A stretch of 64,000 nt of DNA from an uncultured Bacteroidales bacterium (GTDB taxonomy: Bacteria; Bacteroidota; Bacteroidia; Bacteroidales; Muribaculaceae), in contig CADBDH010000021.1 of the NCBI GenBank assembly GCA_902793405.1, positions 20,600 through 84,599 of the forward strand, written 5' to 3'. The notes under the pieces are model-generated. The model had not been told where the DNA came from. It saw nothing but the letters and a program-made list of their open reading frames with translations, and made no database searches. The translations under genes and the position numbers were made by a program. Positions 12,198-60,532 of the stretch are shown in pieces (within the stretch, counting starts at the first letter, position 1; each line of letters starts with the position of its first letter).

Positions 12198-13910
12198 TTA
12201 CCAACCAGGGTTCTGGCTCGTGCCACCCTTGCTCAGCGTAATCTGGTTGCTGGGGATGGGGCACAGGTAGTACTTCTTGTCGAAGATACGCTGTTTCGAT
12301 ACCGGAATCACATAGCCCTGAGCATCCAGGTTGAAGGTCGGGTCGAGATCTACTACACCAGCCAGGAAAGCACCGCGGTTGATGTTGGGATGATCCTGGG
12401 TGTCGAGGAGGTCAAGCTTGTGCCAGCGGACGAGGTCCCAATAACGGTACCAGTTGTCGGCCATGAGCTCACAACGACGGGTGCGGCGGATTTCCCACAA
12501 CAGGTTGCTAACGTCCATGTTGTTGGCGGGGTCGGTAGCAGGATTCATGGTCATACCGGGCAGACCGGCACGGGCCTGCAGCTTGTTGACGCTGATATCC
12601 AGGTCAGACTGGTTGAGGGTGCCCAATTCGGCCTTGGCCTCGGCATAGTTCAGATAGATGACTGCCAGCCAGTAGATGGGAGCATCGGTGTAGTTCTTAC
12701 CGGTGTTGATTCGGTAGTCCACTTCCATCTGTACATTATCATACTTGGCAATGTTGTAACCCGTCGATGAGGTCATCAGCATCGAGTTGGAGCGAACCCA
12801 ACCATGGCCCTTGAAGCACAGATACGGATCCAGCAGGACGCTCAAGCGCTTGTCGCGGTTGGCGAGCATGCCACGGATGCTGTAAGCATTGTTGGAGGGA
12901 TCAAGCTGGGGATGATCATCGGTGTTATATGCAGTGGTATACAGGGGCTTGCCGTCCAGGAACAGGAAGGCCTCGACAGCGTCCTTGCTGATACCGCGCT
13001 GCTGTGACGACGAAGCGGTGTAGTCGGCCGTGGAGTGCATGAGCTGATCCTTCACATAGTTGCGGAAGAAGATCACCTCAGAGTTCTTGCTCAGGTCAAG
13101 CGAGTTGTACACCTCGCCATAGTTGGCCGTGAGGCTGTACTTGCCCGAGTTCATGATCTGCTGTGAAGCGTCAACGCACTCGTTAAGGTACTTCTGGGCG
13201 CGGGTAGCGTCGGCTGCCTTGCCGTTCTCGTCTTCAGTGCGGTACTTGCAATAGGTACCCTCAAACAGGCAGATGTCGCTCTTCATGGCAAGTGCCATGT
13301 CCTTGCTCCATGAGTTCTTGCCACCGGCACCCAGGTTCTGGATTGCAAAGTTCAGATCGTCGAGCACAAAGTCCATGACACGGTCACGGTCGGTGCGAGG
13401 ACCATAAACAACATCGCTCTGAGCCACGGGGTCGAGGATAACCTCTTCGAGCAGATTGACATCACCATACATGCGCACGAGCTGGTAGTACTGCCATGCG
13501 CGGTTCAGGCGGCCAACAGCGACATAATAGTTCTTCTCGCTATCGAGCAGAGTAGAATTCTTCAAACCGGTCAACATGTAGTTGCAGCGGCGGATTTCGG
13601 TGTAGGGAGTGCTCCAGTAAGTGGAAGTACCGGGAACAGTGGTGAACATCCAATCGTCGAAGCTAGGATTCACCTGGTCGTCGCTCAGGCTCTTGAAATA
13701 GAACCAGCCCGAGCCGCCACCTTGGCCATATCCAACATAGTTCTCATACAGGACGTTGCTGTAGCTGGCCACCTGATTGGTATTGCTCCAAAATTCGGGT
13801 CCAAGCTCAAACTTGGTGCGCTCGTTCTTGGTGAGCATATCGTCACATGATGACAACGAGATGAGAGCGGCACCCAGTCCACAAAGTATAATTGATTTGA
13901 AAAGTTTCAT
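12198..13910 (-). CDS. SusD/RagB outer-membrane lipoprotein (operon 1)
   Basis: 570 residues. The lipobox SLSSC gives a lipid-anchored Cys near residue 22. SusD-type TPR helices follow (GRLNRAWQYYQLVRMYGDVNLLEE; ALAMKSDICLFEGTYCKY). The C-terminal RagB/SusD block has WLAVIYLNYAEAKAELG, LLWEIRRTRRCELMADNWYRYWDLVRW and the terminal CPIPSNQI. SusD proteins sit as a lid over their SusC barrel at the cell surface and capture the nutrient. It lies 129 bp downstream of its SusC. The first codons match those of the SusD genes at 22254 and 28450. The substrate is unknown; no polysaccharide-degrading gene is adjacent. Confidence 0.93.
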   Translation of the reverse strand: MKLFKSIILCGLGAALISLSSCDDMLTKNERTKFELGPEFWSNTNQVASYSNVLYENYVGYGQGGGSGWFYFKSLSDDQVNPSFDDWMFTTVPGTSTYWSTPYTEIRRCNYMLTGLKNSTLLDSEKNYYVAVGRLNRAWQYYQLVRMYGDVNLLEEVILDPVAQSDVVYGPRTDRDRVMDFVLDDLNFAIQNLGAGGKNSWSKDMALAMKSDICLFEGTYCKYRTEDENGKAADATRAQKYLNECVDASQQIMNSGKYSLTANYGEVYNSLDLSKNSEVIFFRNYVKDQLMHSTADYTASSSQQRGISKDAVEAFLFLDGKPLYTTAYNTDDHPQLDPSNNAYSIRGMLANRDKRLSVLLDPYLCFKGHGWVRSNSMLMTSSTGYNIAKYDNVQMEVDYRINTGKNYTDAPIYWLAVIYLNYAEAKAELGTLNQSDLDISVNKLQARAGLPGMTMNPATDPANNMDVSNLLWEIRRTRRCELMADNWYRYWDLVRWHKLDLLDTQDHPNINRGAFLAGVVDLDPTFNLDAQGYVIPVSKQRIFDKKYYLCPIPSNQITLSKGGTSQNPGW

Positions 13911-14039
13911 ATTATCTTCTTTTTTAGTTGTAAGTTTTAAGTCGTAAGTTTTAAGTATGAATAGTATCGCCTGAGAACTGTATCGTCATGAGGTAATATT
14001 ACTTAAAACCAAAAACTTAAAACTAAAAACTGATTAATC
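13911..14039 (-). repeat. susC-susD intercistronic spacer, class 1, inverted copy
   Basis: Built of AGTTTTAAGT-type units whose two halves pair into a long hairpin. Read on the minus strand it matches the spacer at 22124-22253 with about two differences in roughly 130 bases. Confidence 0.85.
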
Positions 14040-17000
14040 TTACTTCACGATGATTTCGCAGATAGAAACGCGGTTCCAGCTCAGTTCATCAAACATTTCG
14101 CTGATGCCCTGACCCTGGGCGTTGATGCGCTTGGCATCGATGCCATACTTCTTCACGAGCATATCCTTCACGCTGGCGGCACGGCCGTTGGCAAGGGTAA
14201 TGTTGCGCTCGATGGGACCGTCCTTGGAGGCGTAACCGTTGATGGTGCAGGTAGCCTCGGGATGGCTCTTCATGTAAGCGGCGATGCGCTCAACGTTGGG
14301 CTGCTGGTCGGCATATACTGCCATCGAGTTGATGGGGAAGTGAACCAGGATGGTCATGTACTGCAATGACTTGTCGATCATGCCGATCTTGCTCTTCTGG
14401 CAATCGTTCAGGTCCTTCTGGAGCTGACTGTTGCGGTTGTTGGCAGCGTTGAGCTGGTTCTGCAGCTCGGCGATGCGGGCATTGTAAGCGCTCTCGGCAT
14501 TAGCGAGCTGTGAGCGCAGGTCATTGATCTGAGCGTTCAGGAGACCATTGTCGCCAGGAGCGGCGGTAACGGCAGCACTGCGGCTGGTGCCGAAGGTCAC
14601 TTGCAGACCCACCGACCAAGTGCGGTTGATGGGATAGGTGCGGCCCCAGGTACCGTAACCCAGAGAACCCTGACCGGCGTTCATCTCGGGGTCGATGGGG
14701 AGCTTGCCGCTGCCCTTGTGGAGCAGACACAGGTTGTTCACACTACCGTAAACACGCAGCTTGTCGATAAAGGCCTTGCGGGTCAGGTTCTCGGGCAGGG
14801 TGTAACCCAGCGTGATGTTCTTGAGGCGCAGGTAGCTCATGTCGACGAGGTACTTGGTCTGGGGATAGTAGTTGTGGCAGCCACCCTCACCCGAGAGGCC
14901 TACCACGTTACCAGCGAACTCGTTGCCGGGGAACAGGCAGGGGAAGTCGTTGTCCTCGCTGATGTTCACGACACCGTTCTCGGGATCATAGATATTGTAC
15001 TTGGTCTGGTTGGCAAAGATAGCCAAGTCGGCCGAACGCATCATCGGGAAGACGAAGGCTGACTGGGTCCACATGTCGCGCTTGCCCACACCCTGGAAGA
15101 AGACGTCAAGGTCAAAACCCTTGAAGTTGCCACCAACGTGGAAGCTGTACTCATAGCGAGGCATCATGTTACCGATGACCTTGAGGTCACCATGGTCTTC
15201 CTCGGTGCCCTTGCCGCCGTCAATCACGCCGTCACCGTTCAGGTCCTTGTACTTGATGTCACCAGGGCCGAAGACGAAGGTCTGGGTCTGGATGCCGGTC
15301 TGGTCGGCAACGCCGGGAGCATAGATCCACGAGCCGTCGTCATTCTTGCCGGTGAAGTCACGCTCGGTAAAGTAGCGGTCGGTCTCGAAGCCCCAGATGT
15401 CACCCCAGGTCATATCCTTGTAGGCATAAGCACTGTTGCAGGGGTAGCCAATCAGGTGCGAATCGTTGTTCCACTTGGTCACCTTGGTCTTGGCATCACC
15501 CACGCTGGCGCTGAAGTAAGCACCGAAGTCCTTGTTGAACTGCTTGCGCAGGTCCAGAGTAGCTTCCCAACCACGGGTACGGAGCTCACCGTTGTTGGTC
15601 ACAGGAGCGGCAGCACCCACTGCGGGAGGCAGTGCGGTACCAGGACCCAGCATGTCGCTGGTGGTGCGCTGATACCAGTCAAAGCCCAGGGTGAGGATAT
15701 CACCGAACAGACCCAGGTCGATACCGGCGTCCATGGTGGTGATGCGCTCCCAGGTCAGCGAGGAGTTCACCCATTTGGGCAGACCCAGCTCGGTCACCTT
15801 GGCACCATTCTCGTTGAGCCAATAGATGCTGCCCTGAGCAATGGGGCTGATGAGCGACTGGAACTGGTTCTCACCGACGGCCTCGTTACCGATGGTACCG
15901 TAAGAGAAACGCAGCTTACCGTTGTCCACGATGTGGCGCAGGCGGTCCCAGTACTTCTCCTGGGTGAAGCGGTAACCTACCGAGCCCGAGGGGAAGAATG
16001 CCCAGTGGTCATTCACGGGGAAGCTCGACGAACCGTCGTAGCGGCCGTTCAACTCGAGCAGGTAGATGCCCTTGTAGTCATAATTGATACGGCCAAAGTA
16101 GCCGGCGGTAGCCTTGTCAAAGGTGCTGCTGTTGATGTTCCACTTGGTCTGGTCACCATAGGTCAGCGCCATCTCGGGATAGGCCTCGCTATAGAGCTGG
16201 GGCCTGTAGGCATAAAAGTAGTCGCTGGTGTAGTTGTCACCGTTGACACCCACCATGATGTTGAAGTTGTGGGCGTCGTTGAAGCTCTTGTTCCAGTTCA
16301 AGGTGGCGTTTGCAGCCCACTTGTTGCTCTTGCTGTTGTCGCGCCAGGCGTTGGTGTTACCGTCGTTCACGATCCACTGGGGAGTTACACCGCTCCAGTT
16401 GTAGCCATAGACGGTGTGGTCACTCGAACCGCTGTTCATGTTACCGATCTCATAGGTGAAGTCGGCATTCAAGGTCAGGTCCTTGGTGATGTGTACCGTG
16501 GTGAAGGCGGTCATGCTCAGGCGGTCCATCGTCACGTTCTTGCGGGCAGCCTGCTTCTGCATGGCGATTACGCGGAAGTCGAGCTGCTCACCCGTGGTGG
16601 GATCGGCAATCGTGCCGCTGGGGATAAAGAACGAACCCCAGCGCCAGATGTACTGGTACATGTTGTTCCAGGTATCGGCGCGTGAGAAGTGGCGGCGCGA
16701 GAAGTTGATGCGGGTACCAACGGTCAACCAGTCGGTCAAGTCGGTCGAGATGTTGGCAGCGGCATTGTAGCGCTTACGCATAGCGGGATTCCACTTCATG
16801 TTGTCCTCCTTGTAGTTGTAACCGAAGGACAGGTAGTAGGTGGTGCGGTTGCTGGCACCGCGAACCGACACGTTGTGGCCCTGAGAGGGTGCAGCGTGGT
16901 TGTACCAGATGTTCTGGATGTCATAGTCGGCATAGTACATGGGCTGGCTGCCGACGAAGCGGTAGTCACCCACATCACCGTCGCTTGCCCAGGGGCGCAT

Positions 17001-17960
17001 CACGCCGTAGCCGATCTTCTTGCCACCGTTCTGCTTCTGCCATGCCTCGGCATAGGGCAGCAGCTGGTCGAAGTACATACCGAAGAGCTCGACAGCATCC
17101 GAACCCTCACGCTTCTTGGCCATGATGGCCGACTTCAACTGGGTGGGAACATCGGGAAAATCAGGCAGGTAGGTGGGATCGTCCCAACCGAAGTTGTTGG
17201 TGTAGGTCACCGTGGCGCGCTCACCCTTCTGGCCCTTCTTGGTGGTGATCAACAGCACACCAAAGGCGGCACGGGTACCGTAGATCGATGACGAAGCAGC
17301 GTCCTTCAATACCGATACCGATGCGATGTCGTTGCCGTTGAGCAGCTGCAATCCGTCCATATCGCTCACCACGCCGTCGATGACGATCATGGGCTGCGAG
17401 TTCTGGTCGTTGCTCAGCGTACCCACGCCACGGATGCGCATCGTGGGATTGCCGTCGATGTCACCGCTGGCGTTGATGATGCTCAAGCCGGGAACGGCGC
17501 CCTGCAAGGCGCGCGACACGTCCTGCTCGGGACGCGAGTTGAAGGTCTTATCGACATCCACTGTCGATACGGCACCGGTCAGGTTCACCTTCTTCTGGGT
17601 ACCATAACCCACAACAACGACCTCGTCCAGGAGGGCGTTATCCTCGGCCATAACGACGCGCATGCCCGCAGTAGCGCGGGTTTCTACCGTCTTGTAGCCG
17701 ATGAACGAAATCTGGAGCTTGGCATTGACGCCAGCCCGCAACGAGAAGTTACCGTCCACATCGGTCGATGTGCCACGGGTCGTTCCAACCTCGACAACGC
17801 TCGCGCCGATGACGGGTTCTCCCTTCTCATCGACAACGCGGCCTGTCACAATGCTGGTGGCGGTACTTGCCGTCACCTGGGGCGCAGGGGCTGCCTGGGC
17901 CTGATAACCAGAGCCACACAGCATCAGCAATGCGCCCAAAAGAGCTAAATGTCTTTTCAT
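14040..17960 (-). CDS. SusC-type TonB-dependent transporter fused to coiled coil and OmpA domain (operon 1)
   Basis: 1306 residues from ATG 17960 (a GTG two codons earlier is less likely). Signal peptide, then a carboxypeptidase-regulatory-like domain (VTGRVVDEKGEPVIGASV), a TonB-box region DEVVVVGYGTQ, the plug (PMIVIDGV, VSVLKDAASSSIYGTRAAFGVLLITTKKG) and the barrel. The barrel closes with TWSVGLQVTFG near residue 1130, where ordinary SusC proteins end. The protein continues with an alanine-rich coiled coil and an OmpA-like domain ([59 protein letters not shown]). The barrel C-terminus faces the periplasm, so the tail would reach peptidoglycan. Its OmpA tail is the most divergent of the four. 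Cotranscribed with the SusD gene downstream. Confidence 0.93.
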   Translation of the reverse strand: MKRHLALLGALLMLCGSGYQAQAAPAPQVTASTATSIVTGRVVDEKGEPVIGASVVEVGTTRGTSTDVDGNFSLRAGVNAKLQISFIGYKTVETRATAGMRVVMAEDNALLDEVVVVGYGTQKKVNLTGAVSTVDVDKTFNSRPEQDVSRALQGAVPGLSIINASGDIDGNPTMRIRGVGTLSNDQNSQPMIVIDGVVSDMDGLQLLNGNDIASVSVLKDAASSSIYGTRAAFGVLLITTKKGQKGERATVTYTNNFGWDDPTYLPDFPDVPTQLKSAIMAKKREGSDAVELFGMYFDQLLPYAEAWQKQNGGKKIGYGVMRPWASDGDVGDYRFVGSQPMYYADYDIQNIWYNHAAPSQGHNVSVRGASNRTTYYLSFGYNYKEDNMKWNPAMRKRYNAAANISTDLTDWLTVGTRINFSRRHFSRADTWNNMYQYIWRWGSFFIPSGTIADPTTGEQLDFRVIAMQKQAARKNVTMDRLSMTAFTTVHITKDLTLNADFTYEIGNMNSGSSDHTVYGYNWSGVTPQWIVNDGNTNAWRDNSKSNKWAANATLNWNKSFNDAHNFNIMVGVNGDNYTSDYFYAYRPQLYSEAYPEMALTYGDQTKWNINSSTFDKATAGYFGRINYDYKGIYLLELNGRYDGSSSFPVNDHWAFFPSGSVGYRFTQEKYWDRLRHIVDNGKLRFSYGTIGNEAVGENQFQSLISPIAQGSIYWLNENGAKVTELGLPKWVNSSLTWERITTMDAGIDLGLFGDILTLGFDWYQRTTSDMLGPGTALPPAVGAAAPVTNNGELRTRGWEATLDLRKQFNKDFGAYFSASVGDAKTKVTKWNNDSHLIGYPCNSAYAYKDMTWGDIWGFETDRYFTERDFTGKNDDGSWIYAPGVADQTGIQTQTFVFGPGDIKYKDLNGDGVIDGGKGTEEDHGDLKVIGNMMPRYEYSFHVGGNFKGFDLDVFFQGVGKRDMWTQSAFVFPMMRSADLAIFANQTKYNIYDPENGVVNISEDNDFPCLFPGNEFAGNVVGLSGEGGCHNYYPQTKYLVDMSYLRLKNITLGYTLPENLTRKAFIDKLRVYGSVNNLCLLHKGSGKLPIDPEMNAGQGSLGYGTWGRTYPINRTWSVGLQVTFGTSRSAAVTAAPGDNGLLNAQINDLRSQLANAESAYNARIAELQNQLNAANNRNSQLQKDLNDCQKSKIGMIDKSLQYMTILVHFPINSMAVYADQQPNVERIAAYMKSHPEATCTINGYASKDGPIERNITLANGRAASVKDMLVKKYGIDAKRINAQGQGISEMFDELSWNRVSICEIIVK

Positions 17961-21300: not shown

Positions 21301-22123
21301 TCGCAACTGGATCACCAGCGTGAAGAGCCTGCGTCTGCGCACCATCTCGCTGACCTATGATGTTCCCCGTAGCGTCCTGGCCCGCATCAAGTACATCAAG
21401 CGTGCTGCTATCACTGCATCGGCCAACAACCTGCTGCTGTTCACCAACTACGACGGTGATCCCGAGGTAGCTGCTTCGGGTGCCGGTATCGGTGGTTCGT
21501 CTTCGGTAGGCTTTGACTACTGCGGTGTTCCCGCTACCCGCTCCTATGCTGTAGGTGTCAACCTGGTATTCGGTACCGACGATGCTGCTCCCGCTCGCGT
21601 CAACAACATCGAACTCGACAACCTGAACGGCCAGATCAATGACCTGCGCAACCAGCTTGCCAACGCTCAGAACGCCAGCAACGCCCGCATTGCACAGCTC
21701 GAGAACGACCTCGCTGCTGCCAACAAGGCCCTGGCCAACTGCCGCAACGACCTGAATGCTGCCAAGAACGCCGCTCCCAAGGTGGTTGACAACAGCAAGC
21801 AGTTCATGAACGTGCTCGTTCACTTCCCCGTGAACAAGACCGCTATCACCGCCGACCAGCGCGCCAATGTTGAGCGTGTTGCCGCTTACCTGAAGAGCCA
21901 TCCCGAGGCTACCTGCACCATCAACGGTTATGCTTCGCCCGAGGGCAACCAGGAGAACAACATCAAGCTCGCTAACGGCCGTGCCGCTAGCGTGAAGGAC
22001 ATGCTCGTCAAGAAGTATGGTATCGCTGCCAACCGCATCAATGCCAAGGGTCAGGGTATCAGCAACATGTTTGACGAACTGAGCTGGAACCGCGTTTCTA
22101 TCTGCGAAATCATCGTGAAGTAA
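18389..22123 (+). CDS. SusC-type TonB-dependent transporter fused to coiled coil and OmpA domain (operon 2)
   Basis: 1244 residues from ATG 18389; an in-frame GTG two codons upstream is unlikely. Order: signal peptide, regulatory-like beta domain (VSGVIRDAQGEPLIGATV), DEVVVTALGI TonB-box region, plug (PLFVVDGVIYDN; SVLKGPAAAALYGSMAANGVVLITTKKG), then the barrel, ending SYAVGVNLVFG near residue 1065. The last 174 residues (from 21599) are an added periplasmic module. Its coiled coil ([34 protein letters not shown]) has one Cys, and the OmpA-like domain follows ([51 protein letters not shown]). TonB energy would drive import of a substrate delivered by the SusD encoded next. Divergent from operon 1. 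Confidence 0.94.
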   Translation: MKKQLALLAALAIACGAPAGMTSLPSTGFTAEAQANKVSGVIRDAQGEPLIGATVKVKGTNRGTATDVDGKYSIAANRGDVLVISYVGSKPMEVTVGSSSMDIDMAANDQVLDEVVVTALGIRKDKKSLGYAVDDLKAEELMRNKSANAINSLSGKIAGVNITQSSGAAGAGAQIILRGGTTVSETHDSQPLFVVDGVIYDNSAGIVGNSAFDGMMNSATTSSNRVMDINPEDIESMSVLKGPAAAALYGSMAANGVVLITTKKGKEGHTEVSFSGKMIASMVKDLPKTQKEFVRGYMTDMYNDAGQWTGLDIKNDSYNSWGPKQNVPFYDNLKNFFETGIIWDTNLSVSGGTKNNNFFLSGSFYDQDGIVPTTGYTKTTFRFNGEQKVGRFTFGANAAYSNARTTKTLTGAALYGSSGTGALYAAYNWSPSDDMRHYLNEDGTRYRMFGDLIEPAEERDNPYWIVNKNKMTDETERFTGNFNVKWDIFDWWWLSYRMGVDSYTTQSNNTIAPGGAIKKVWQNGMWSNNMYKYRYLSNNLMSNWNGQFGDFNINLMLGGSTDYTKSRSDYIMAWNFPTELYSAENAEKTAQSFKHRISQKRMVSAFGEFRVDWRNAIFLTVTGRNDWTSTLPKNNRSYFYPSVSGAIAFTELFRESLPDWFSFGKIRASWAQVGKDTDPYETNTYLWPVGTYLEGIVGMGNIWTRGNSYMKPERTRSTEVGLELRFIQNRLKFDAAYYTNNSYDMILSPRGPQSTGYIFCSLNSGNIYNKGIELSLSGTPIQHENFTWETGINFFGNRGTVGELVNGIDVMYLTDVQYGGAKAASYNHGNFMGIDGTKWNRNAEGKLILDKNGFPTTDGKAYEVGDREAKWQGGFNNTFTFFKNWTFNMLWEFRYGGDVFNGTKYAMSMSGVSQLSADWRNQSLTIEGVDSEGNPVTNTWEADENYTFNGNETSGYNIIKNYYTGAYNYEVRNWITSVKSLRLRTISLTYDVPRSVLARIKYIKRAAITASANNLLLFTNYDGDPEVAASGAGIGGSSSVGFDYCGVPATRSYAVGVNLVFGTDDAAPARVNNIELDNLNGQINDLRNQLANAQNASNARIAQLENDLAAANKALANCRNDLNAAKNAAPKVVDNSKQFMNVLVHFPVNKTAITADQRANVERVAAYLKSHPEATCTINGYASPEGNQENNIKLANGRAASVKDMLVKKYGIAANRINAKGQGISNMFDELSWNRVSICEIIVK

Positions 22124-22253
22124 GGATTAATCAGTTTTTAGTTTTAAGTTTTTGGTTTTAAGTAATATTACCTCATGACGATACAGTTTTCAGGCGATAC
22201 TATTCATACTTAAAACTTACGACTTAAAACTTACAACTAAAAAAGAAGATAAT
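22124..22253 (+). repeat. susC-susD intercistronic spacer, class 1
   Basis: 130 bases; the two halves (AGTTTTTAGTTTTAAG... and ...CTTAAAACTTACAACT) are complementary and would form a long mRNA hairpin between susC and susD. Nearly identical to 13911-14039 in inverted orientation. Confidence 0.85.
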
Positions 22254-24095
22254 ATGAAATCATTGAAATCAATTATACTGTGCGGTCTGGGTGTTGCGAT
22301 GCTGTCGCTCACCTCATGCAACGACTGGCTTGACGTGAATGTTGACCCGAATACCCCTTCGGCCGAGTCAACGACCTACGACCAGCGTCTGGCTCACATT
22401 GAGTTCTATACCAACAGTGGTTTGCAGTTCAGTGCCTGGCGTACCACCATGTCGATGGGTGACTGGACCCGCTACAACGGTGGCGGTAACTACTGGCATG
22501 TATCCTATTGGTATCCTGTTGACGGTCAGGTAACGACTACCTATCAGTGGTGGTTCGTTGGCGCCTATGCCAATGTGCCTGACATGATCGCTAAGGCTGA
22601 GGCCGATGAGAACTGGCAGTATGCCGGTGCCGGCTATCTGATTAAGGCTTATGGCTTCATGGCCATGACCGACCTCTATGGTGAGATGCCTTATACTCAG
22701 GCAGCCGCCGAGCCCGCTACTCCCGAGTATGACACGGGTAAGACCATCTATCTGGGTTGCTTTGAGACCATCGACAAGGCTATCGAGATGCTTGAGAAGG
22801 GTCGCAGCCAGGATCCCAACCTGCCCACGCTGGCAGCCGGTGACTGGTGGAACAAGGGTGACCTGAACAAGTGGATCAAGCTCGCCTACATGTTGAAGGC
22901 CCGCTGGATCAACAAGCTGAACAAGAAGGGTGCCGGCAGCTACAAGGACGGTAAGTATGATGCTGACGAGATTCTGCGCTGCCTCGACAAGGCCATGCAG
23001 AGCAATGCCGACAACACCATCGTGAACCATACCGACGCCAACGGTCCCACCCACGACAACCTGGGTTGGGATGAGCCCGTTGACTACTCACCCCTGTTCT
23101 CGGTTTGCGGTATGAATGCCGGTTACATGGTGACCAAGATGCTCTATGACAACCTGACCAACTTTGCTGGTAACGGCGTTGAGGATCCCCGTGCCGACCA
23201 CATCATCCCCTGGGCTTACAGCCCCAGCAAGGATGCCAACAGCCGCACCGACGTGAAGTGGGTGGGCAACTGGCGTCGTTCGCTTGGCGTTGACATGGCC
23301 AGTGAAATCAATAGCCAGGGCGGTCCCCTGCGCGCCATGTTCAACACGGGCACCAACAGCTGGTATATTGACACTAAGAATGATGCCCGTAAGGGTGATA
23401 CCGTCTATGTCGAGTGCACCAGCGACTGCAAGGGTTACTTCGCTAATCCCAGCATCCTGTACTGCCGCGCCGGTAGCGGCATGTTCCAGTCGGCTGAGTC
23501 GGGTACGTTCTACACCCGCGTGAGCTCGCCTACCTACATTGGCACCTATGCCGAGTGCTGCTTCATCAAGGCCGAGACCCTGTTCAAGAAGGGTGACAAG
23601 GCTGGCGCTTACGCTGCCTACAGGGCTGGTGTAAAGGCTAGCTGCGAGCTGATGAATGAGAAGCTGAGGGCATGGATTGCCGAAGATGCAAGCCTCGCCG
23701 ACTGCCCGTCGTTCACCCCGATGACCGATGAGGCCATCAATAACTTCCTGGACAATGGTATCGGCACTCAGGGCGAACTGAGCCTGGGTCACATCCTCAT
23801 GCAGAAGCGTATCGCCCTCATGTTCTCCTATGAGATCTGGAACGATATGCGCCGCTATGACTTCGATCCCAACATCTTCTTCGGTTGGTCGATTCCCGCT
23901 TACCACTACAAGGTGGCTTATCGCCGCTGGCGCCAGTGCTCGCACGAGTACAACTACAACAGCAAGAACCTGCAGGCCATCGGTGCACAGGTTCCCGGCG
24001 CCCGCATGACCGACAGCGAGGGCAACGAAGTGATGTGGAACCGTCAGGATGACGCTTGGACCATCCCCGTATGGTGGGACAGCAACCAAGAGTAA
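22254..24095 (+). CDS. SusD-like outer-membrane lipoprotein (operon 2)
   Basis: 613 residues with lipobox LSLTSC and Cys near residue 22. The body fits the SusD-like_2 branch: WLDVNVDPNTPS start, a GAGYLIKAYGFMAMTDLYGEMPYTQA helix pair, LAYMLKARWINKLNK, and the late ILMQKRIALMFSYEIWNDMRRYDF block in place of the classic RagB ending. This branch often pairs with TonB transporters of uncertain substrate, not only glycans. The leader codons resemble those of the other SusD proteins here, while the mature parts differ. Followed by a strong terminator, so this is a two-gene operon. Confidence 0.92.
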   Translation: MKSLKSIILCGLGVAMLSLTSCNDWLDVNVDPNTPSAESTTYDQRLAHIEFYTNSGLQFSAWRTTMSMGDWTRYNGGGNYWHVSYWYPVDGQVTTTYQWWFVGAYANVPDMIAKAEADENWQYAGAGYLIKAYGFMAMTDLYGEMPYTQAAAEPATPEYDTGKTIYLGCFETIDKAIEMLEKGRSQDPNLPTLAAGDWWNKGDLNKWIKLAYMLKARWINKLNKKGAGSYKDGKYDADEILRCLDKAMQSNADNTIVNHTDANGPTHDNLGWDEPVDYSPLFSVCGMNAGYMVTKMLYDNLTNFAGNGVEDPRADHIIPWAYSPSKDANSRTDVKWVGNWRRSLGVDMASEINSQGGPLRAMFNTGTNSWYIDTKNDARKGDTVYVECTSDCKGYFANPSILYCRAGSGMFQSAESGTFYTRVSSPTYIGTYAECCFIKAETLFKKGDKAGAYAAYRAGVKASCELMNEKLRAWIAEDASLADCPSFTPMTDEAINNFLDNGIGTQGELSLGHILMQKRIALMFSYEIWNDMRRYDFDPNIFFGWSIPAYHYKVAYRRWRQCSHEYNYNSKNLQAIGAQVPGARMTDSEGNEVMWNRQDDAWTIPVWWDSNQE

Positions 24096-27600: not shown

Positions 27601-28353
27601 CTCACCAAGGTAACCAAGGGTACCGTACAGAATGCCAGCATCTATGCTTCGGCCAACGACTTGTTCACCATCACCAACTACACGGGTACCGACGTTGCCG
27701 GTAACACCCTGTCGGCAGCTGCCGGCGGTACCGGTGGTGAGGGTTACGACTGCTGGTCGCTGCCCACTCCGCGCAGCTACTCGGTAGGTCTGAGCGTGAC
27801 CTTCGGCAGCAACGACGAGGCTCCCAAGCCCGCCTACGTGAACACGACGGCCCTGAACGACCAGATCAACGACCTGCGCGCTCAGCTCGCCAACGCCGAG
27901 AACAGCTACAACAGCCGTCTGGCTCAGATGCAGAACGACCTCGACGCCGCTAACCGCGCCCTGGCCAACTGCCGCAACGACCTGAATGCTGCCAAGAACG
28001 CCGCTCCCAAGGTGGTTGACAACAGCAAGCAGTACATGAACGTGCTCGTTCACTTCCCCGTGAACAAGACCGGCATCACCGCCGATCAGCGCGCCAACGT
28101 TGAACGCGTCGCCGCTTACCTGAAGAGTCATCCCGAGGCTACCTGCGAAATCAAGGGTTACGCTTCGCCCGAGGGCAACCAGGAGAACAACATCAAGCTC
28201 GCTAACGGCCGTGCCGCCAGCGTGAAGGATATGCTCGTCAACAAGTATGGTATCGCTGCCAACCGCATCAATGCCAAGGGCCAGGGTATCAGCAACATGT
28301 TTGACGAATTGAGTTGGAACCGTGTTTCGATTTGCGAAATCGTCGTGAAGTGA
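24655..28353 (+). CDS. SusC-type TonB-dependent transporter fused to coiled coil and OmpA domain (operon 3)
   Basis: 1232 residues from ATG 24655. The signal peptide is nearly the same as in the 18389 gene (MKKQLALL). Then VSGVVKDANGEPMIGVNV, DVVVTAEFG, plug (PLYVIDGIPMNNTSF; TVLKGAAAAALYGSDASNGAIIITTKKG) and the barrel, closing with SYSVGLSVTFG. The added tail begins near 27835: coiled coil ([20 protein letters not shown]) with the ALANC cysteine, then the OmpA-like domain ([46 protein letters not shown]). The tail DNA around 27958-28070 matches that of the 18389 gene almost exactly while the barrels differ strongly, pointing to recent exchange of the module. The SusD and a third lipoprotein follow. 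Confidence 0.94.
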   Translation: MKKQLALLCTLAIAFGVPAGLAPSQYNTGFTAVAQSNRVSGVVKDANGEPMIGVNVRVKGTNTGTTTDLDGRYSIKADPNQTLVFSFVGYDAIEVPASQAANVQLTEGANTLQDVVVTAEFGMKRVARTVGSSVQNVKAQDIIESGRTDFISALQGRVSGMSVVSSGGAPGASTTVVLRSATSLSGNNQPLYVIDGIPMNNTSFNPTSGLAVEDGGSAGLTPRSTDYSSRGNDFNPEDIESMTVLKGAAAAALYGSDASNGAIIITTKKGRSGRARVTYSNQFTWSKAYGWPKIQDKYINGAYGAANFYYTSRYGSLYDGTMPFFDNTAAVLQTGFMHRHNLSMEAGNDKMSVRASASFFDQDGVIKTTGLTRTNLSLAGRAELTKWLSMEGSMQYVNAKNDKALRGLYGPVRYSYRWPSVDDMSIYLAEDGAHMKYPAYYTDTDLLNPLFALKKNLMHDQTDRIISAFSLNFTPIAHTYLRLQMGWDVSTSTYETGTHPYYTSANQSVDDSNNSGTYNITKYNTNDPTLNVLAGYNNSWLDNKFSLGIQAGYHQLENGVTSLSSYGSNFKVIDFYSINNCTESTVTSKKRSTKRRVQAISGQLELGFNNMIFLTGRFRNDWSSTLPKDNNSYFYPAGELSIVLSEMKFMKNIGFINYLKLRGAIAQVGKDAPVLSIDPELEPTGLTGGGYKYGYTGPNRSLKPEMTTSYEAGVEARFWNDRINADFTWFRTHCADQIVTGFRMSYATGFVLNNMNVGTFNTWGWEGHADVDVVRANDIRWNVGFNISHTNSKVVYLPENLVEFYNAYTWNSGNIRNGVMKGHPISTVTGRAYERNSKGQILIDPTTGLPRTSADWSILGNREPKLRFGLTTALSVKNWRLSAMFQGRYHADVVNATMRDMLGTGLNWLSVDMREKGFVVFDGVLYDGKQESDNPTKNTIAVNLGEYGSYTYTGGDEDWIQHKINYIRCQELRLAYVFSRNWLTKVTKGTVQNASIYASANDLFTITNYTGTDVAGNTLSAAAGGTGGEGYDCWSLPTPRSYSVGLSVTFGSNDEAPKPAYVNTTALNDQINDLRAQLANAENSYNSRLAQMQNDLDAANRALANCRNDLNAAKNAAPKVVDNSKQYMNVLVHFPVNKTGITADQRANVERVAAYLKSHPEATCEIKGYASPEGNQENNIKLANGRAASVKDMLVNKYGIAANRINAKGQGISNMFDELSWNRVSICEIVVK

Positions 28354-28449: not shown

Positions 28450-30336
28450 ATGAAACTTTTCAAATCAATTATATTGTGTGCGCTGGCTTGCGTGACGTTG
28501 GGACTGACATCCTGCGACGACTACCTGGATGTGAACAAGAACACCGACGCCCCTGACTATGTAGAGGGCTACCTCTACCTGGCAGGTATCCAGCAGGCTT
28601 ATCAGGGCATCTACTGGGACTTGCGTGCCATCGCTCCGCTCACCCAGATGATGGGTACCTCGAGTTACACCAATTTTGCCAACCACTACTACACCAAGGC
28701 CAGCGATGCCGGTGGTGAAGCATGGCGCATGGTTTACTGGAACCAGGGCATGAACCTGGAGAACATGATCAACCAGAGTGTTCAGGCCGAGAATTGGACG
28801 CTTGCCGGTATCGGCATGGCCATGAAGGCTTTCTCATGGGACCTGCTGACCAAGGTCAACGGTGAGGCTCCCATGAAACAGGCCTATGAGGCAGGACGTC
28901 TCGACCATCAGTACGACTACCAGTATGACATCTATCCCCAGGTGCGCGAGTGGGCCTACAAGGCTATCGAGTACCTGCAGAAGGAGGACAACTCGTCCTA
29001 TGGCAACCGCATCAAGAACAACGACTTCATTTATGGCGGTGACAAGGACAAGTGGGTTAAGTTCTGCTATGCAGTGATTGCCCGCAACCTGGCCTCGCTG
29101 ACCAACAAGAAGGACTTCAGGGAGAAATACTACAATGAGTTCCTCGAGGCTGTCAGCAAAGCTTTTGCCAGCAATGACGACAACGCTACCCTGAAGATTG
29201 CCGGTGGTGGCGCCGATGCTGCCGAGAGCGGCTACAACAACTTCTGGGGTCCCTATCGTGGCAACTTGAGCTACAGCTACTTCCAGCACGACTATGCCGT
29301 GCAGCTGTTCACGGGTACCATCCGCAAGTATGATGAGAACGGTAACTATATCCAGACCGAGGATACCATCGAGATCAACCGTCAGCACTATCCCTACCAG
29401 CTGCTCGACAAGCAGATCACCAGCGATACCCTGCCCGATGCCGGTCACTTCGACCCGCGCCGCCTCGTGAAGCTGGCCACGACCGACAGCAGCAAGTATG
29501 CCACCATCGCCGACCGCGAGGTGCTGCGCAGCCTCTACTATGTGGGCTCGGGCTTCACTGGCGCTTCAGGCCCCATCGGCACTGCTCCCTCGTTCTGGGG
29601 CCGCAATGCCGTGTCCAACACCGTCTATGACGGTTCCGGCCACTGGATCTATCGCGACGACTGTCCCTACATCATGACCACCTATGCCGAGCTGCTGTTC
29701 GACCTGGCCGAGGTTCAGTTCAAGTATGGCAGCAAGAGCGATGCATTTGAGACCTGGAAGAAGGCCATGCAGGCCGATATGGACTTCACTGCCAGCTACA
29801 TCGTAGCCGGTACCTATGATGGTACTTACCGTCAGGGTGACCGTGTGACCAAGGCCACCTTCAACACCCTGGCACAGGAATACCTGAATGGTCCCTACGT
29901 GGGTGGTCTGTCACAGAGTGACTTCTCGCTGTCACACATCATGATGCAGAAGTATCTGGCCCTCTATCCCTGGGGTGCTATCGAAGCTTGGGTTGACCTG
30001 CGCAAGTACTTCTATGACATCCAGTACACAGGCGACTATCCCAAGTATGGCAACGGTTGGGACAGAACAACTCTCGACCAGAAGCTGGATACCGATCCCA
30101 ACAAGGTTTACAAGGGATTCTGGCTGCAGCCTGCACAGGTACAGGGTCGCAAGAGCGCCTTCAATACCGACAACAACGGCTCGCCCTGCTTCCGCCTGCG
30201 CCCGCGCTACAACTCCGAGTACATGTGGAACAAGGGCAACCTTGATGCCCTGTTGCCCATCGGTGGCCAAGAGCTTGATTACCAGTGCTCAATCATGTGG
30301 TTCTGCTATCCCGGTGATATGCCTACGTCAAGATAA
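28450..30336 (+). CDS. SusD-like outer-membrane lipoprotein (operon 3)
   Basis: 628 residues; lipobox LGLTSC with Cys near residue 22, then DDYLDVNKNTDAP typical of the SusD-like_2 branch. Visible helices: LAGIGMAMKAFSWDLLTKVNGEAPMKQA, WVKFCYAVIARNLASL, YAELLFDLAEVQFKYG. A late ISHIMMQKYLALYPWG-type segment is also present (as SHIMMQKYLALYPWGAIEAWVDLRKY). The leader matches the SusD at 13910 (MKLFKSIILC). It is followed after 30 bp by a further lipoprotein gene. Substrate unknown; like operon 2 it lacks enzyme neighbours. Confidence 0.92.
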   Translation: MKLFKSIILCALACVTLGLTSCDDYLDVNKNTDAPDYVEGYLYLAGIQQAYQGIYWDLRAIAPLTQMMGTSSYTNFANHYYTKASDAGGEAWRMVYWNQGMNLENMINQSVQAENWTLAGIGMAMKAFSWDLLTKVNGEAPMKQAYEAGRLDHQYDYQYDIYPQVREWAYKAIEYLQKEDNSSYGNRIKNNDFIYGGDKDKWVKFCYAVIARNLASLTNKKDFREKYYNEFLEAVSKAFASNDDNATLKIAGGGADAAESGYNNFWGPYRGNLSYSYFQHDYAVQLFTGTIRKYDENGNYIQTEDTIEINRQHYPYQLLDKQITSDTLPDAGHFDPRRLVKLATTDSSKYATIADREVLRSLYYVGSGFTGASGPIGTAPSFWGRNAVSNTVYDGSGHWIYRDDCPYIMTTYAELLFDLAEVQFKYGSKSDAFETWKKAMQADMDFTASYIVAGTYDGTYRQGDRVTKATFNTLAQEYLNGPYVGGLSQSDFSLSHIMMQKYLALYPWGAIEAWVDLRKYFYDIQYTGDYPKYGNGWDRTTLDQKLDTDPNKVYKGFWLQPAQVQGRKSAFNTDNNGSPCFRLRPRYNSEYMWNKGNLDALLPIGGQELDYQCSIMWFCYPGDMPTSR

Positions 30337-44886: not shown

Positions 44887-44919
44887 ATCTAGATTATCTA
44901 GTGCATCTAGTTGATCTAG
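44887..44919 (+). repeat. four ATCTAG units at 9-bp spacing
   Basis: ATCTAG occurs at 44887, 44896, 44905 and 44914, each separated by three variable bases. It lies between the GH3 gene and the LTA-synthase-like gene, just upstream of the latter's start. Confidence 0.7.
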
Positions 44920-44933
44920 GAAAATACAAGAAA

Positions 44934-46907
44934 ATGTGGAATAAGCTGATTCATAGCAATATCGGAGCCGCAGTGCTGAATATGCTGGTGGCGTATCTGG
45001 TGTGGATGCTGTCGCGGGTGGCCTTCTTTGTGGAGAACTGGTCCACCTTTGCACCCTACATGTCGTGGCCGCTGTTCAAGGGCATGCTGCATGGCGCGCT
45101 GGTATTCGATACTTCGGCTTTGCTCTACATCAATGGTATCTATTTGGCACTCATGCTGTTGCCGCTTCACCTCAAGGAGCGGCCAGGCTTCCACAAGGGG
45201 TTGCGCTGGCTGTTTGTCGTGACCAATGCCGTCGCCATCGCCATCAACCTGATGGACGCCGTCTATTTCCAATATACGGGCCGCCGCTCGACGGTGACGG
45301 TCTTCACCGAGTTTGCCAACGAGGGCAACATCACCTCCATCCTCCTGACCGAATTCCTCCGTCACTGGTACCTGGTACTGGCATTCATCGCGCTGGTATT
45401 CATCTTGTGGCGCTGCTATACTAAGCCCAGGCTAGAGGTTTATCGATTTGGTTTTCAGTACTATGTATCCCAAGCCATCGCCTTGTTGGTAATGGTGCCG
45501 CTGGCCATTGTGGGCATCCGTGGCAGCGTCACGGCGGGCACGCGCCCCATCACCATCAGCAACGCCAACGAGTTCGTCAACCGTCCTGTCGAGGCCTCGG
45601 TGGTGCTGAATACGCCGTTCTCGATGATTCGCAGCATCGGCAAGAAAGCCTTTGTCACACCCGACTACATGCCTACAGCCCAGATGGAGGCTACCTACAG
45701 CCCCGTTCATGAGCATCCCGTGACCGACGATCTGAGCCACCCGGGCAAGAACGTGGTCATCCTCATCGTTGAGAGCATGGGCAAGGAGTACATCGGCTCG
45801 CTCAATCCCGACCTGGACGGAGGCCGGTACAAAGGCTATATGCCCTTTATCGACAGCCTGGTAGCCAAGTCGCTGACTTTCAAGTACAGCTATGCCAACG
45901 GCCGCATCAGCATGGACGCCATGCCCTCGATCCTGTCGGGCCTGCCCATGATGGTCGAGTCGTTCTTCCTCACGCCCGCCTCGCTCAACGATGTGGACGG
46001 CATCTCGTCGATGCTGGACCGCGAGGGCTACAGCACCGCATTTTTCCACGGCGGACACAACATCTCGATGGGTTTCAGCGCCTATGCCCACAGCATCGGC
46101 TACCAGCGCTATTACGGCCTGGACGAGTACTGCCAGTCGAAAAAATACGATGGAATGGACGATTTTGACGGGAAATGGGCCATCTGGGACGAGCCCTTCC
46201 TGCAGTTCACGCTCGACAATATCGAGGAAATGAAGCAGCCCTTCCTGGCCACGGTGTTCACCGCCTCGTCACATCACCCCTATAACGTGCCCGACCGATA
46301 CCGCGACTCGTTGCGCGACGAGGGCGGCCAGCCCATCCACAAGTGTGTGCGCTACACCGACCTGGCACTGCGCCGCTTCTTTGAGCGCGCCAGCCGTGAA
46401 CCGTGGTACCAGAACACCATCTTCGTCCTCGTGGCCGACCACACCAACCAATCCAGCCACGACATCTACAAGACCGACCTGGGCCTGTACAGCATACCCA
46501 TCATCTTCTTCACCCCCGACGGCACACTGACTCCCGCCCAGCGCGACGATGTCATCGTCCAGCAGACCGACATCACGCCCACCTTGCTGCACCTGTTGGG
46601 CTACGACAAGCCCTACCTGGCCTTTGGCGACGATGCGCTCGCTGCCGACCCCTCAGGGACATGGGCATTCAATTACAATGCCGGAGTTTACCAGCTGGTC
46701 AAGGGCGACCTGCTGCTCCAGTTCAACGGCACACGCACCACAGCCGTCTATCGCTTCAAGACCGACAAACTGCTGAGAAACAACCTGGTTGGCCAGCTAC
46801 CTGAACAGCAGCCGATGGAGCAATTCATCAAAGCCCTCATCCAGCAGTACATGTCCCGCATGAACGAGAACCGACTCCTCCCGTCCTCCAATACAGACAA
46901 CAAATAA
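44934..46907 (+). CDS. LTA-synthase-like phosphoglycerol transferase (alkaline phosphatase superfamily)
   Basis: 657 residues from ATG 44934 (MWNKLIHSNIG); an upstream ATG at 44901 would lie in the repeat and adds no hydrophobic segment. About five N-terminal transmembrane helices (to residue about 195) precede an extracytoplasmic sulfatase-type domain. Metal-site landmarks: VILIVESMGKEYIG, NGRISMDAMPSILSG (nucleophile position reads Ser), FHGGHNISMGF and VADHTNQSS. The family moves phosphoglycerol or phosphoethanolamine groups onto envelope glycans or lipids. The Ser in place of the usual Thr nucleophile is worth noting. Ends at a strong terminator. Confidence 0.88.
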   Translation: MWNKLIHSNIGAAVLNMLVAYLVWMLSRVAFFVENWSTFAPYMSWPLFKGMLHGALVFDTSALLYINGIYLALMLLPLHLKERPGFHKGLRWLFVVTNAVAIAINLMDAVYFQYTGRRSTVTVFTEFANEGNITSILLTEFLRHWYLVLAFIALVFILWRCYTKPRLEVYRFGFQYYVSQAIALLVMVPLAIVGIRGSVTAGTRPITISNANEFVNRPVEASVVLNTPFSMIRSIGKKAFVTPDYMPTAQMEATYSPVHEHPVTDDLSHPGKNVVILIVESMGKEYIGSLNPDLDGGRYKGYMPFIDSLVAKSLTFKYSYANGRISMDAMPSILSGLPMMVESFFLTPASLNDVDGISSMLDREGYSTAFFHGGHNISMGFSAYAHSIGYQRYYGLDEYCQSKKYDGMDDFDGKWAIWDEPFLQFTLDNIEEMKQPFLATVFTASSHHPYNVPDRYRDSLRDEGGQPIHKCVRYTDLALRRFFERASREPWYQNTIFVLVADHTNQSSHDIYKTDLGLYSIPIIFFTPDGTLTPAQRDDVIVQQTDITPTLLHLLGYDKPYLAFGDDALAADPSGTWAFNYNAGVYQLVKGDLLLQFNGTRTTAVYRFKTDKLLRNNLVGQLPEQQPMEQFIKALIQQYMSRMNENRLLPSSNTDNK

Positions 46908-51710: not shown

Positions 51711-52907
51711 CTACAGTAATCTTTTAAGTTCTTCAATATCGGGTAATGCCTTGCGGTAACGATCAGGCATATCCTTGTTGGTTGTGTATGTCGCTACACC
51801 CATCGGCTTGCTATAGTCCCGTATCACAAATTCAACAAAATCATGGTCGGCACTTTTACAAAGAACTATTCCTATAGACGGATTCTCATGCGGTTTTTTC
51901 ACTTTCGCATCAAGAATGCTTAAGTATCCCATCAATTGACCGAGGTATGAGGTCTTGAATGCTCCGGTCTTGAGTTCAATCACTACAAGAGCATTTAATT
52001 CTCGGTTAAAAAACAGCAAATCAGGAAACTGCTCAATGCCATAAGCCTCAAGATGATACTGATTACCGATGAAAGCAAAATCATTGCCAAAGGTCATGAT
52101 AAATTCCTTGATGTTCTGAATAATCTGTTGTTCTACAACACGTTCATCAACATCAATGGATTCTCGTTCACCAATCTCCTCCACATTGATAAAATTGAGC
52201 AAGTATTCGTCTTTAAACATCATCACGGCCTTGCGTGCCTCTGTTGTATTAGGAATCGTTTGGCCAAAGTTGTTGGGTATCAGTGATTGATGTTCGTGAG
52301 CCGATTCCTTAATGAGTTGACCCAATTTATCTGCCGAAAGATGTTCCTCGACAGTTCGATGCAAATAATAATATCTGGATGATAAATCTTTTATTCCTTC
52401 GATAATTCTTATGTGATGAGTGAACGGTACTCTGAAAAAATCGTCAACCGGAAAATCTCCCGTTACAGGCACTTGCAGACTATAGTCTATGTCTATAATA
52501 CTGTCTGACTCATCTTGGTCTAATTCGCCAATTGCAATTGGCGAATTAGTAAATTGCTGGTTACCAGGTTTTTGAATTTCGCCAATTGCAATTGGCGAAT
52601 GTGTATCAAGAAAGCTCCATTCCTCATAGAACAGTCGCATATTTTTTAAACTTGATACAGAAAACCCCCTTAGACCAGGCAGTTCCTTGCGCAATCGACC
52701 ACTAATGGCCTGAAGGGCACCTGTTCCCCAAACACCCTTGCGTGTGTTCAATGCAAGATAACGGCCTATCGCATAATAGAGTGCCAGTTGCACCCGATTA
52801 ACATCCTTAGCCGCTTCGTATTGTCCCTGCAAGATAGCTGTCTTGATAGCTGTTACAGCTTTCAAGATGGGATTGTCGTCATTCTGATTTTGTTCAATAC
52901 TAGACAT
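51711..52907 (-). CDS. DUF1016/YhcG-type PDDEXK nuclease-like protein
   Basis: 398 residues. N-terminal DUF1016 part (QLALYYAIGRYLALN; LPGLRGFSVSSLKNMRLFYEEW) and C-terminal PDDEXK part (FAFIGNQYHLEAYGIEQFPDLLFFNRELNALVVIELKTGAFKTSYLGQL, with D...ExK). GC is clearly lower than the surrounding core genes, consistent with transfer. The linker contains two copies of SPIAIGE encoded by near-identical DNA palindromes (52521-52548 and 52578-52599). A TAACTTTG box with TTTG 20 bp upstream lies at 52930-52937. Family members are linked to DNA restriction or repair, but no function is established. Confidence 0.88.
   Translation of the reverse strand: MSSIEQNQNDDNPILKAVTAIKTAILQGQYEAAKDVNRVQLALYYAIGRYLALNTRKGVWGTGALQAISGRLRKELPGLRGFSVSSLKNMRLFYEEWSFLDTHSPIAIGEIQKPGNQQFTNSPIAIGELDQDESDSIIDIDYSLQVPVTGDFPVDDFFRVPFTHHIRIIEGIKDLSSRYYYLHRTVEEHLSADKLGQLIKESAHEHQSLIPNNFGQTIPNTTEARKAVMMFKDEYLLNFINVEEIGERESIDVDERVVEQQIIQNIKEFIMTFGNDFAFIGNQYHLEAYGIEQFPDLLFFNRELNALVVIELKTGAFKTSYLGQLMGYLSILDAKVKKPHENPSIGIVLCKSADHDFVEFVIRDYSKPMGVATYTTNKDMPDRYRKALPDIEELKRLL
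52521..52599 (-). repeat. two palindromes inside the DUF1016 coding sequence
   Basis: A 28-bp perfect palindrome at 52521-52548 (half-site TAATTCGCCAATTG) and a 22-bp perfect copy at 52578-52599 (half-site TTCGCCAATTG). Both are read in the same frame as SPIAIGE. Confidence 0.9.
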
Positions 52908-58984: not shown

Positions 58985-60532
58985 TTACTCGGGATAGTCA
59001 CCCACGGGGTTCTGATCCTTAGATAAATCCATATTCACATTGCCGTCAAACTCGGCCTGAGGAATCGTCAGTACCCACAGGTAGCTGGTGGGATCAACCA
59101 TAGCCAAGGAGTGAGTAGGCAGCAACAGACCATCGGGCCAGCCATACGAGCTGGGACGAACGAAGCCCTGGTGCAAGCGACGGATGGTGTAGATGCGGCC
59201 ATCCTCGCCCCACAACTCCAGACGACGCTGGATGAGGATTTCCTCAAGCAGCGAACCAGTTTCGTTGGTCGTGATGGTCTCCAGAGCGTTACCACTCTTC
59301 TCGGTAGTGTAATTAGCATCACGCTTTGCCATCAGAGCCATCAGGTACTGCTTGGCAGTGGCGTCATCACCCTTGTGGCAAGCGGCCTCGGCGGCATTGA
59401 GGTACATCTCCTCAACACGCATCCAGACGTAGTCGGCTTCCCAGGTCTGCTCGTTGGAGAACTCAAACTTCTTCTGCAGGAAGTTCTCGGCAGGATTCCA
59501 CCATGCACGGCGTGCATCGCTGGTTTTCATCTTGCTATACAGCCAAGACGAAATCTGCTTGGGAGCACGCTGACCATAGGGGGCAGTACCACTCATGTGG
59601 GTCATCAGCGAAGCATACATACCGGCCTGGTCGCTCACAATCTGAGCACCCCACATCACGTTACCCTGACCAACCGAGTTGATGAAGTTAGCCTTGTTGG
59701 GAGCAAATGCAGAGGGGTCGATAGACTGAATGCTCTTGCCACTGGCAGCGATAGCCTTCTTGGCAGCGTCCAGGGCGTCGTCCCACTTCTCCTCGACGAG
59801 GGCGATACGGGACTTGATACCCAGAGCCACGGCATAGCTCATGTGGCTGGGATGACGCTGGGCGGGCGACTTGGCCAGCAGTTCGAGGGCCTTGTTGATG
59901 TCGCTGTCGATCTGAGTGTAAACCTTGGCAACACTCGAGCGGGGCTGACCGGTCGTGGTGGTCATAGTAGGCTCAACGTAGATGGGCACACAAGGATCGT
60001 CGCTGAAGTTGTAGTTGCGGGCAAACGTCTGTGCAAGCATGAAGTAGCTGTAGGCACGGATGGCATAAGCCTGACCGATTACATAGGCTACATCCTCGGC
60101 AGAACCACCCATGGTTCCCTCGGCGGCGATGATGTAGTTGGCATTGGCAATCCAGGTGTAGTAGGCCATCCACAGGTCATAGCTGCGCCATGAACTGCTG
60201 GTGTAACGGCCCTTTACATTATAAGCAGCGTCGAACCAGAACCAACCTGAGCCCTGGGCACCCATGATGAAGTCGTCACCCATCACCTCGGCCATCAGGT
60301 TATAGGCACTGATACCGAAGCACTGGTGGGTATTACCGGTGGTGGACCAACCGGCAGTGTACATCGAGCGGTAGATACCGTTCAGGGGAATCAACGCCTT
60401 GGTAGCGTCGCTCATGAAGGTAGAACCCGACATGGAGTCGGTGGGCTCGGTCTCCAGCATCTTGCTGTCGCAGGATGAAAGAACGAGCATGCCGAACATC
60501 CCAATAAACAAATATTTAAATATCTTTTTCAT
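58985..60532 (-). CDS. SusD/RagB outer-membrane lipoprotein (operon 4)
   Basis: 515 residues. Lipobox LVLSSC with Cys near residue 21, but the leader (MKKIFKYLFIG) differs from the MKxxKSIILC leaders of the other SusD proteins. SusD helices: EDVAYVIGQAYAIRAYSYFMLAQTFARNYNFSDDPCVPIY (classic SusD), YAVALGIKSRIALVEEKWDDA and WMRVEEMYLNAAEAACHKGDD. The RagB end is EEILIQRRLELWGEDGRIYTIRRLHQGFVRP with TIPQAEFDGN. Follows the SusC after a 98-bp class 2 spacer and precedes the Calx-beta-like lipoprotein. Confidence 0.93.
   Translation of the reverse strand: MKKIFKYLFIGMFGMLVLSSCDSKMLETEPTDSMSGSTFMSDATKALIPLNGIYRSMYTAGWSTTGNTHQCFGISAYNLMAEVMGDDFIMGAQGSGWFWFDAAYNVKGRYTSSSWRSYDLWMAYYTWIANANYIIAAEGTMGGSAEDVAYVIGQAYAIRAYSYFMLAQTFARNYNFSDDPCVPIYVEPTMTTTTGQPRSSVAKVYTQIDSDINKALELLAKSPAQRHPSHMSYAVALGIKSRIALVEEKWDDALDAAKKAIAASGKSIQSIDPSAFAPNKANFINSVGQGNVMWGAQIVSDQAGMYASLMTHMSGTAPYGQRAPKQISSWLYSKMKTSDARRAWWNPAENFLQKKFEFSNEQTWEADYVWMRVEEMYLNAAEAACHKGDDATAKQYLMALMAKRDANYTTEKSGNALETITTNETGSLLEEILIQRRLELWGEDGRIYTIRRLHQGFVRPSSYGWPDGLLLPTHSLAMVDPTSYLWVLTIPQAEFDGNVNMDLSKDQNPVGDYPE

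Follow-up and report, generated by a model that had tools for sequence, protein, structure and literature searches.

Among the systems described so far, those closest to the locus analyzed here include the SusC/RagA importers (TIGR04056), for A the BT2261-2264 complex (5fq6), with which our four genes have in common the plug, a carboxypeptidase-like N-terminal domain, a barrel of the 22-strand type and a SusD partner. BT2263-2264 reportedly imports peptides. TonB barrels have their C-terminus on the periplasmic side. In the outer membrane of Flavobacterium johnsoniae, no component is more abundant than OmpA and a SusCDE complex (PMC12611786). The OmpM protein of diderm Firmicutes combines nutrient uptake and an outer-membrane tether in one protein, by means of a stalk that is a coiled coil and a domain that binds the wall (PMC10628300). 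For a fusion of SusC, or of a TonB receptor, with OmpA, no precedent was found in the open-licence literature at the level of titles and abstract starts, and within that scope the opinion of the preliminary description of this DNA, that no well-described SusC-OmpA protein is known, still stands.

Four SusC genes with a C-terminal coil and OmpA domain

The window, that is, the whole stretch of 64,000 nucleotides analyzed, belongs to genome G000 and contains four SusC genes, named C (14040-), A (18389+), B (24655+) and D (60631-); G and L numbers designate genomes and loci, respectively. All four exceeded the cut-off of TIGR04056, A matching BT_2264 over nearly the full length, and each one has a SusD-type gene on its 3' side (Table 1). 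Among the other genes of the window, a sulfatase-family gene (44901-46904) and an FGE-like, sulfatase-modifying gene (1740-2771) were observed, as well as a YhcG-type PDDEXK nuclease (PF06250 with DUF1016_N; 51714-52907) adjoining a histidine-kinase-like ATPase gene.

Table 1. Positions of the fused SusC genes, their SusD partners and the associated repeats in the window.
Feature	Position	Strand	Remarks
SusC A with tail, 1244 aa	18389..22123	+	body nearest BT_2264 among solved structures
Tail of SusC A	21572..22120	+	helix at about residues 1073-1126 (21605-21766); Pfam OmpA residues 1146-1226 (21824-22066)
SusC B with tail, 1232 aa	24655..28353	+	tail 27805-28350; Pfam OmpA 28054-28296
SusC C with tail, 1306 aa	14040..17960	-	tail 14043-14591; Pfam OmpA 14097-14339
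SusC D with tail, 5' end lost at contig end	60631..63999	-	tail 60634-61185; Pfam OmpA 60688-60930
SusD partner of A	22254..24095	+	PF12771, PF12741
SusD partner of B	28450..30336	+	PF12771
SusD partner of C	12198..13910	-	PF07980, PF14322
SusD partner of D	58985..60532	-	matches SusD-like chains in PDB
AT-rich palindromic repeat, from tail A to SusD	22121..22253	+	shares 99% identity with the copy after C across 129 nt
Matching palindromic repeat, from tail C to SusD	13911..14039	-	pair of the repeat after A

SusC proteins usually end at the closing barrel strand, as the plain orthologs do, but A-D run further, and the translations place barrel and tail in a single open frame in all four genes. 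The residues beyond the terminal barrel Phe number 183, 182, 183 and 184, so that the extension proposed in the preliminary description is real, but longer than the approximately 170 residues given there; likewise, the tail of A starts slightly upstream, at 21572 and not at 21599. PF00691 scored above the curated Pfam cut-off in the four tails (E values of 6.1e-14, 1.6e-13, 1.1e-11 and 3.2e-12), in agreement with the OmpA-like domain suggested earlier. Regarding the motifs said to be shared, NRVSICEI and GYAS(P/K)(E/D)[14 protein letters not shown] occur in every tail, while HFPxN holds for three, as gene D reads HFPKS. Pairwise identity among A-D is 62-85% in the tails and 24-35% in the barrels. 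In the genome as a whole, 12 SusC-family places lie above the TIGR04056 cut-off, four of them fused and eight without a tail; there are nine PF00691 places, four being these tails, all on one contig.

Structure prediction of the tail of A, as the preliminary description had recommended, returned a helix and an OmpA fold. The AlphaFold2 model of A (residues 118-1244, 46 sequences, pLDDT 76.6, pTM 0.70) has its last barrel strand at 1050-1062, a helix at 1073-1126 and then the OmpA fold, and a tail-only model (30 sequences, pLDDT 88.6, pTM 0.57) gave the same fold with a 55-residue helix at tail positions 13-67, which would be about 8 nm long (at 0.15 nm per residue). This predicted helix has coiled-coil periodicity (22 of 5000 shuffles were as strong as the real coil), consistent with the coiled coil first described. 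In Foldseek searches, the best match of the larger A model was BT2261-2264 (5fq6), and the best PDB matches of the tail were the A. baumannii OmpA-like structures 3td3 and 3td5, the latter with peptidoglycan peptide, and the OprF peptidoglycan domains.

Distribution among relatives and origin of the tail

To place the fusion among relatives, we considered 101 genomes of the genus, which probably belongs to the Muribaculaceae. MnmG matched in 94 of them, at 86% or above in 39 (the subclade) and at 77% or below in the other 55, bar one fragment at 80%. The tail search found a fused SusC in 38 of the 39 subclade genomes, and the sole exception, G178, is 57% complete, with a contig that ends before the SusC genes. 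In the other 62 genomes of the genus, no fused tail was present among the matches listed, which end at about 182 bits, so that a weaker tail would be missed; the fused tails listed score at least 230. Genome G213 has an OmpA of the subclade type, but no MnmG match and no tail among the matches listed, for which we suspect an assembly gap. Among 149 family genomes, the fusion was found only in G000, among the matches listed. With a junction profile spanning barrel end and tail (at most five candidates scored per genome, about 150 matches listed), searches of 393 order genomes and of 395 class genomes gave junction-crossing matches from G000 alone, again among the matches listed. Overall, the tailed SusC is a trait of one subclade of one genus, and not of SusC proteins generally.

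A scan of named genomes yielded 23 loci, in records labelled Muribaculaceae, Prevotellaceae or Bacteroidales, some of which name sheep, goat or water buffalo; the RUG codes in record names presumably denote rumen genomes. On these loci, 48 of the 56 SusC-matching frames carry all or part of the tail, and the remaining eight stop short of the C-terminus, four cut by a contig end and four being upstream pieces of broken genes; all 48 frames extending past the barrel have all or part of a tail. The A gene of L084, L086 and L088 consists of two frames, apparently broken as a result of the assembly or of mixed strains. We also considered an OmpA match within a 1086-aa frame of G190 as an independent fusion, which was discarded, as the part examined looks lipoprotein-like and gave no SusC match.

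Unfused orthologs of A, B and D were compared across the genus. The 24 A sequences in the subclade have frames of 1209-1311 aa, and the 28 plain ones outside (63-78% identity) have 972-1106 aa and align to the barrel end only. Similarly, 18 B sequences in the subclade measure 1210-1320 aa (one, cut at its 5' end, 1093), and 19 outside (65-75%) measure 997-1147 aa, with alignments that do not go beyond the end of the barrel; for D, 21 full subclade sequences (at least 81%) have 1122-1260 aa and 11 full sequences outside (63-70%) have 1048-1058 aa. At the junction, plain A genes end in TTC or TTT followed by TAA, and the fused gene continues from TTC to GGT. Moreover, one contig of G152 carries A, SusD, B, SusD, the 30367 homologue, a glycosyltransferase, band 7, mnmG and uvrC in the order of the window and without tails; gene C was not found within the 40 kb taken. 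The tail is thus a derived, clade-specific trait. It is, however, not universal at the locus, since in G165 a plain A-like SusC (L157 1577-4828; 54% identical) adjoins a fused C. In addition, a plain relative of D (35-38%) occurs in 12 genomes, 11 from the subclade plus G213, in some cases on a contig that also has fused genes.

As for the source of the tail, the major OmpA of the same genome (L003 553-1803, 416 aa) has a C-terminal OmpA domain and is encoded on a contig other than that of the fused genes, and its C-terminal coil and OmpA domain are 56-63% identical to the tails. In a quick tree built from 61 OmpA regions (150 columns, with many of the other forks open), the 11 tails chosen make up a single clade (support 94), which the major OmpAs of the subclade itself join in one branch (97.5) within genus and family. 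The ending NRVSICE is common to the examined tails and to all 15 OmpAs of that branch, L131 included, and occurs in none of 35 other OmpAs. With the tails grouping together as the sister clade of the major OmpA of their own lineage, the computations support that the coil and OmpA domain were captured from the cell's major OmpA once, in the subclade ancestor, and then spread. Compared with this donor, the tail has a coil longer by 14 residues (two heptads) and a linker shorter by six. Each of 23 A tails has an LN..GYAS spacing of 101, as do 15 of the 16 C tails (the other was not measurable); 12 B tails range over 101-105 and one D tail has 104, as compared to 92-97 for the subclade OmpAs (14 of 15, the other again not measurable). 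The preliminary description had pointed out that the beta-signal for BAM would be internal; this is not odd in itself, as the likely donor also carries its OmpA domain C-terminally. E. coli OmpA shows this arrangement as well.

Barrel exchange, gene conversion and selection

Position C (12198-17960; L070-L091) holds two SusC/SusD alleles, one in six loci (window included) and the other in ten. Between them, the SusC bodies are 53% and the SusD proteins 48% identical, whereas the tails are 83.5% identical, compared to 85% and 88% within the alleles; identity goes up at the tail, likewise in the first 60 residues, and the bodies of both alleles intermix in the tail tree. For A, the tail state has to change three times among the A sequences on a body tree of 39 sequences, and four times, as forced by starred branches, once B is included, numbers that do not separate gain from loss. 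In that tree, the fused sequences L081 and L156 lie with the plain ones L150-L153, and the fused L082 lies with the plain L143 and L144. A single fused A clade was rejected with p values of 5e-6 (21 fused A sequences) and 4e-37 (19), which are indicative only, as the tests were set after the tree, with L157 left out. Altogether, the computations support that barrel exchange has taken place, both among alleles and over the boundary of the subclade, while tails stay with the lineage.

The repeats following A and C provide a further comparison. The palindromic repeat has 44 other matches in the genome, 70-94% identical, the long ones (at least 100 nt) 70-79%. In the same genome, the A and C repeats are at least 95% identical over at least 129 nt in three of 14 genomes (window, L072 and L087), and weaker or shorter in 11. 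The repeat, which folds as a strong hairpin (z -4.2), belongs to a dispersed element with more than 40 full or partial genome matches. Moreover, B and D share an exact run of 59 nt after the stop, and A and B one of 76 nt inside the tail; by eye, the L156 tail has a B-like start followed by a C-like coil and OmpA domain, and the A tail of L089 falls among the C tails. These results support gene-conversion tracts between the SusC genes of one locus.

In 105 pairs from 15 A genes, mean dN/dS was 0.178 (maximum 0.326) in the tail and 0.184 in the barrel, and the tails are under purifying selection. Values of dS were 0.359 for the OmpA domain, 0.571 for the coil (104 pairs) and 0.572 for the barrel, the low value of the OmpA domain being as expected if this domain were homogenized. 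The fusion is not a chance one, given that the tails are much more alike than the barrels, that the tail dN/dS is 0.18 and that unfused orthologs stop at the barrel end.

Possible functions of the tail

We consider it rather probable that A-D are SusC TonB-dependent importers with an acquired periplasmic peptidoglycan tether. The computations support that the coil and OmpA domain of the major OmpA were fused directly after the terminal Phe of a SusC barrel, once, in the subclade ancestor, that the tail then reached four SusC genes at a single locus, among which gene-conversion tracts occur, and that purifying selection has kept it during barrel exchange. From what is established for TonB barrels, the tail would exit on the periplasmic side; its helix of about 8 nm, two heptads longer than the donor coil, may reach toward the cell wall, where the OmpA domain would hold peptidoglycan, and the transporter would share the anchoring of OmpA and resist TonB pulling. 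In A. baumannii OmpA, Asp271 and Arg286 are involved in diaminopimelate binding (PMC5974059). The matching Arg is kept in the four tails, but the Asp position is Ser, which counts against a tether, as do the eight SusC places without a tail, the plain genes (that of G165 and the relatives of D) and the other OmpA-domain proteins that the subclade retains, which give no hint of a lost tether being replaced by the tail. Nevertheless, all 50 canonical OmpAs inspected from genus and family read GYAS, an acidic residue lying two positions further along; the change to Ser is a family trait, and this acidic residue, also present in the tails, could substitute for Asp. Peptidoglycan tethering fits the evidence, the tails being putative peptidoglycan binders.

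The main rival to a wall tether is clustering mediated by the coil, in which the tail would work mainly as an oligomerization handle, its Ala-rich coil pairing with other fused SusCs or with the major OmpA, and wall binding would be secondary or shared. This would agree with a coil that derives from that of OmpA itself, with its periodicity and its two additional heptads, as well as with P. gingivalis OmpA reportedly being a predicted heterotrimer (PMC5300881). However, a pure handle needs no OmpA domain, and in the A genes this domain is conserved at least as well as the coil (dN of 0.063 vs 0.097); we hold this explanation to be unlikely, although it deserves to be kept in mind. Less likely still, the tail would be a 3' cassette close to neutral, which recombination has distributed inside a single locus and which plays no transporter-specific role. 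The ectopic conversion tracts (A/C repeats, and the B/D and A/B runs) and the plain alleles tolerated in G165 and, for the D relative, in 11 subclade genomes would be in its favor, yet such a cassette is difficult to reconcile with the dN/dS of the tail, its fixed spacing, its presence in 38 of 39 genomes and its retention when barrels from other lineages come in.

No point was found in favor of two genes joined through assembly error or unlikely read-through, even though the genomes are fragmented assemblies and the A gene is broken in some relatives; the single open frames, the 48 tailed frames out of 48, the location of the donor OmpA on another contig and purifying selection make such an artefact extremely improbable, and it was rejected. 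Compensation for a lost OmpA-domain protein was likewise considered and is not supported, as the subclade keeps its other OmpA-domain proteins: PF00691 matches amount to 318 in the 39 subclade genomes and 286 in the 62 others of the genus, an excess of about 3.5 per genome, approximately the number of fused copies.

Returning to the tether, a broader and quite tentative possibility is that the whole lineage uses the tail as an anchoring cassette: barrels serving different nutrients would swap between strains, while resident tails, homogenized by gene conversion, would stay and provide a standardized attachment to the cell wall, with import from fixed, wall-anchored stations that may take over part of the structural role of OmpA. 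The fused tails also represent a single-origin domain capture followed by spread among paralogs, and matched plain and fused orthologs offer a natural experiment on the effect of a tether on TonB-driven import, transporter mobility and envelope stiffness.

When compared to known systems, A-D differ from solved and unfused SusC relatives, which stop at the barrel, in going on for 182-184 residues of coil and OmpA domain. The major OmpA of the same genome and family is alike in this C-terminal part, to which the tails are sister in the tree, but its N-terminal part is small and of OmpA length, where A-D have a SusC of more than 1000 residues. OmpM is the closest concept, as a functional analogy and not a homology: it is a porin that forms trimers and carries an SLH domain at its N-terminus, whereas A-D are TonB-dependent SusC proteins with a C-terminal OmpA domain, in which Pfam scans detected no SLH family and the barrel is that of SusC. 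Finally, nutrient import and envelope anchoring reside in separate proteins in F. johnsoniae (PMC12611786); if the tether is true, A-D would join both in one protein, in one group of gut bacteria.
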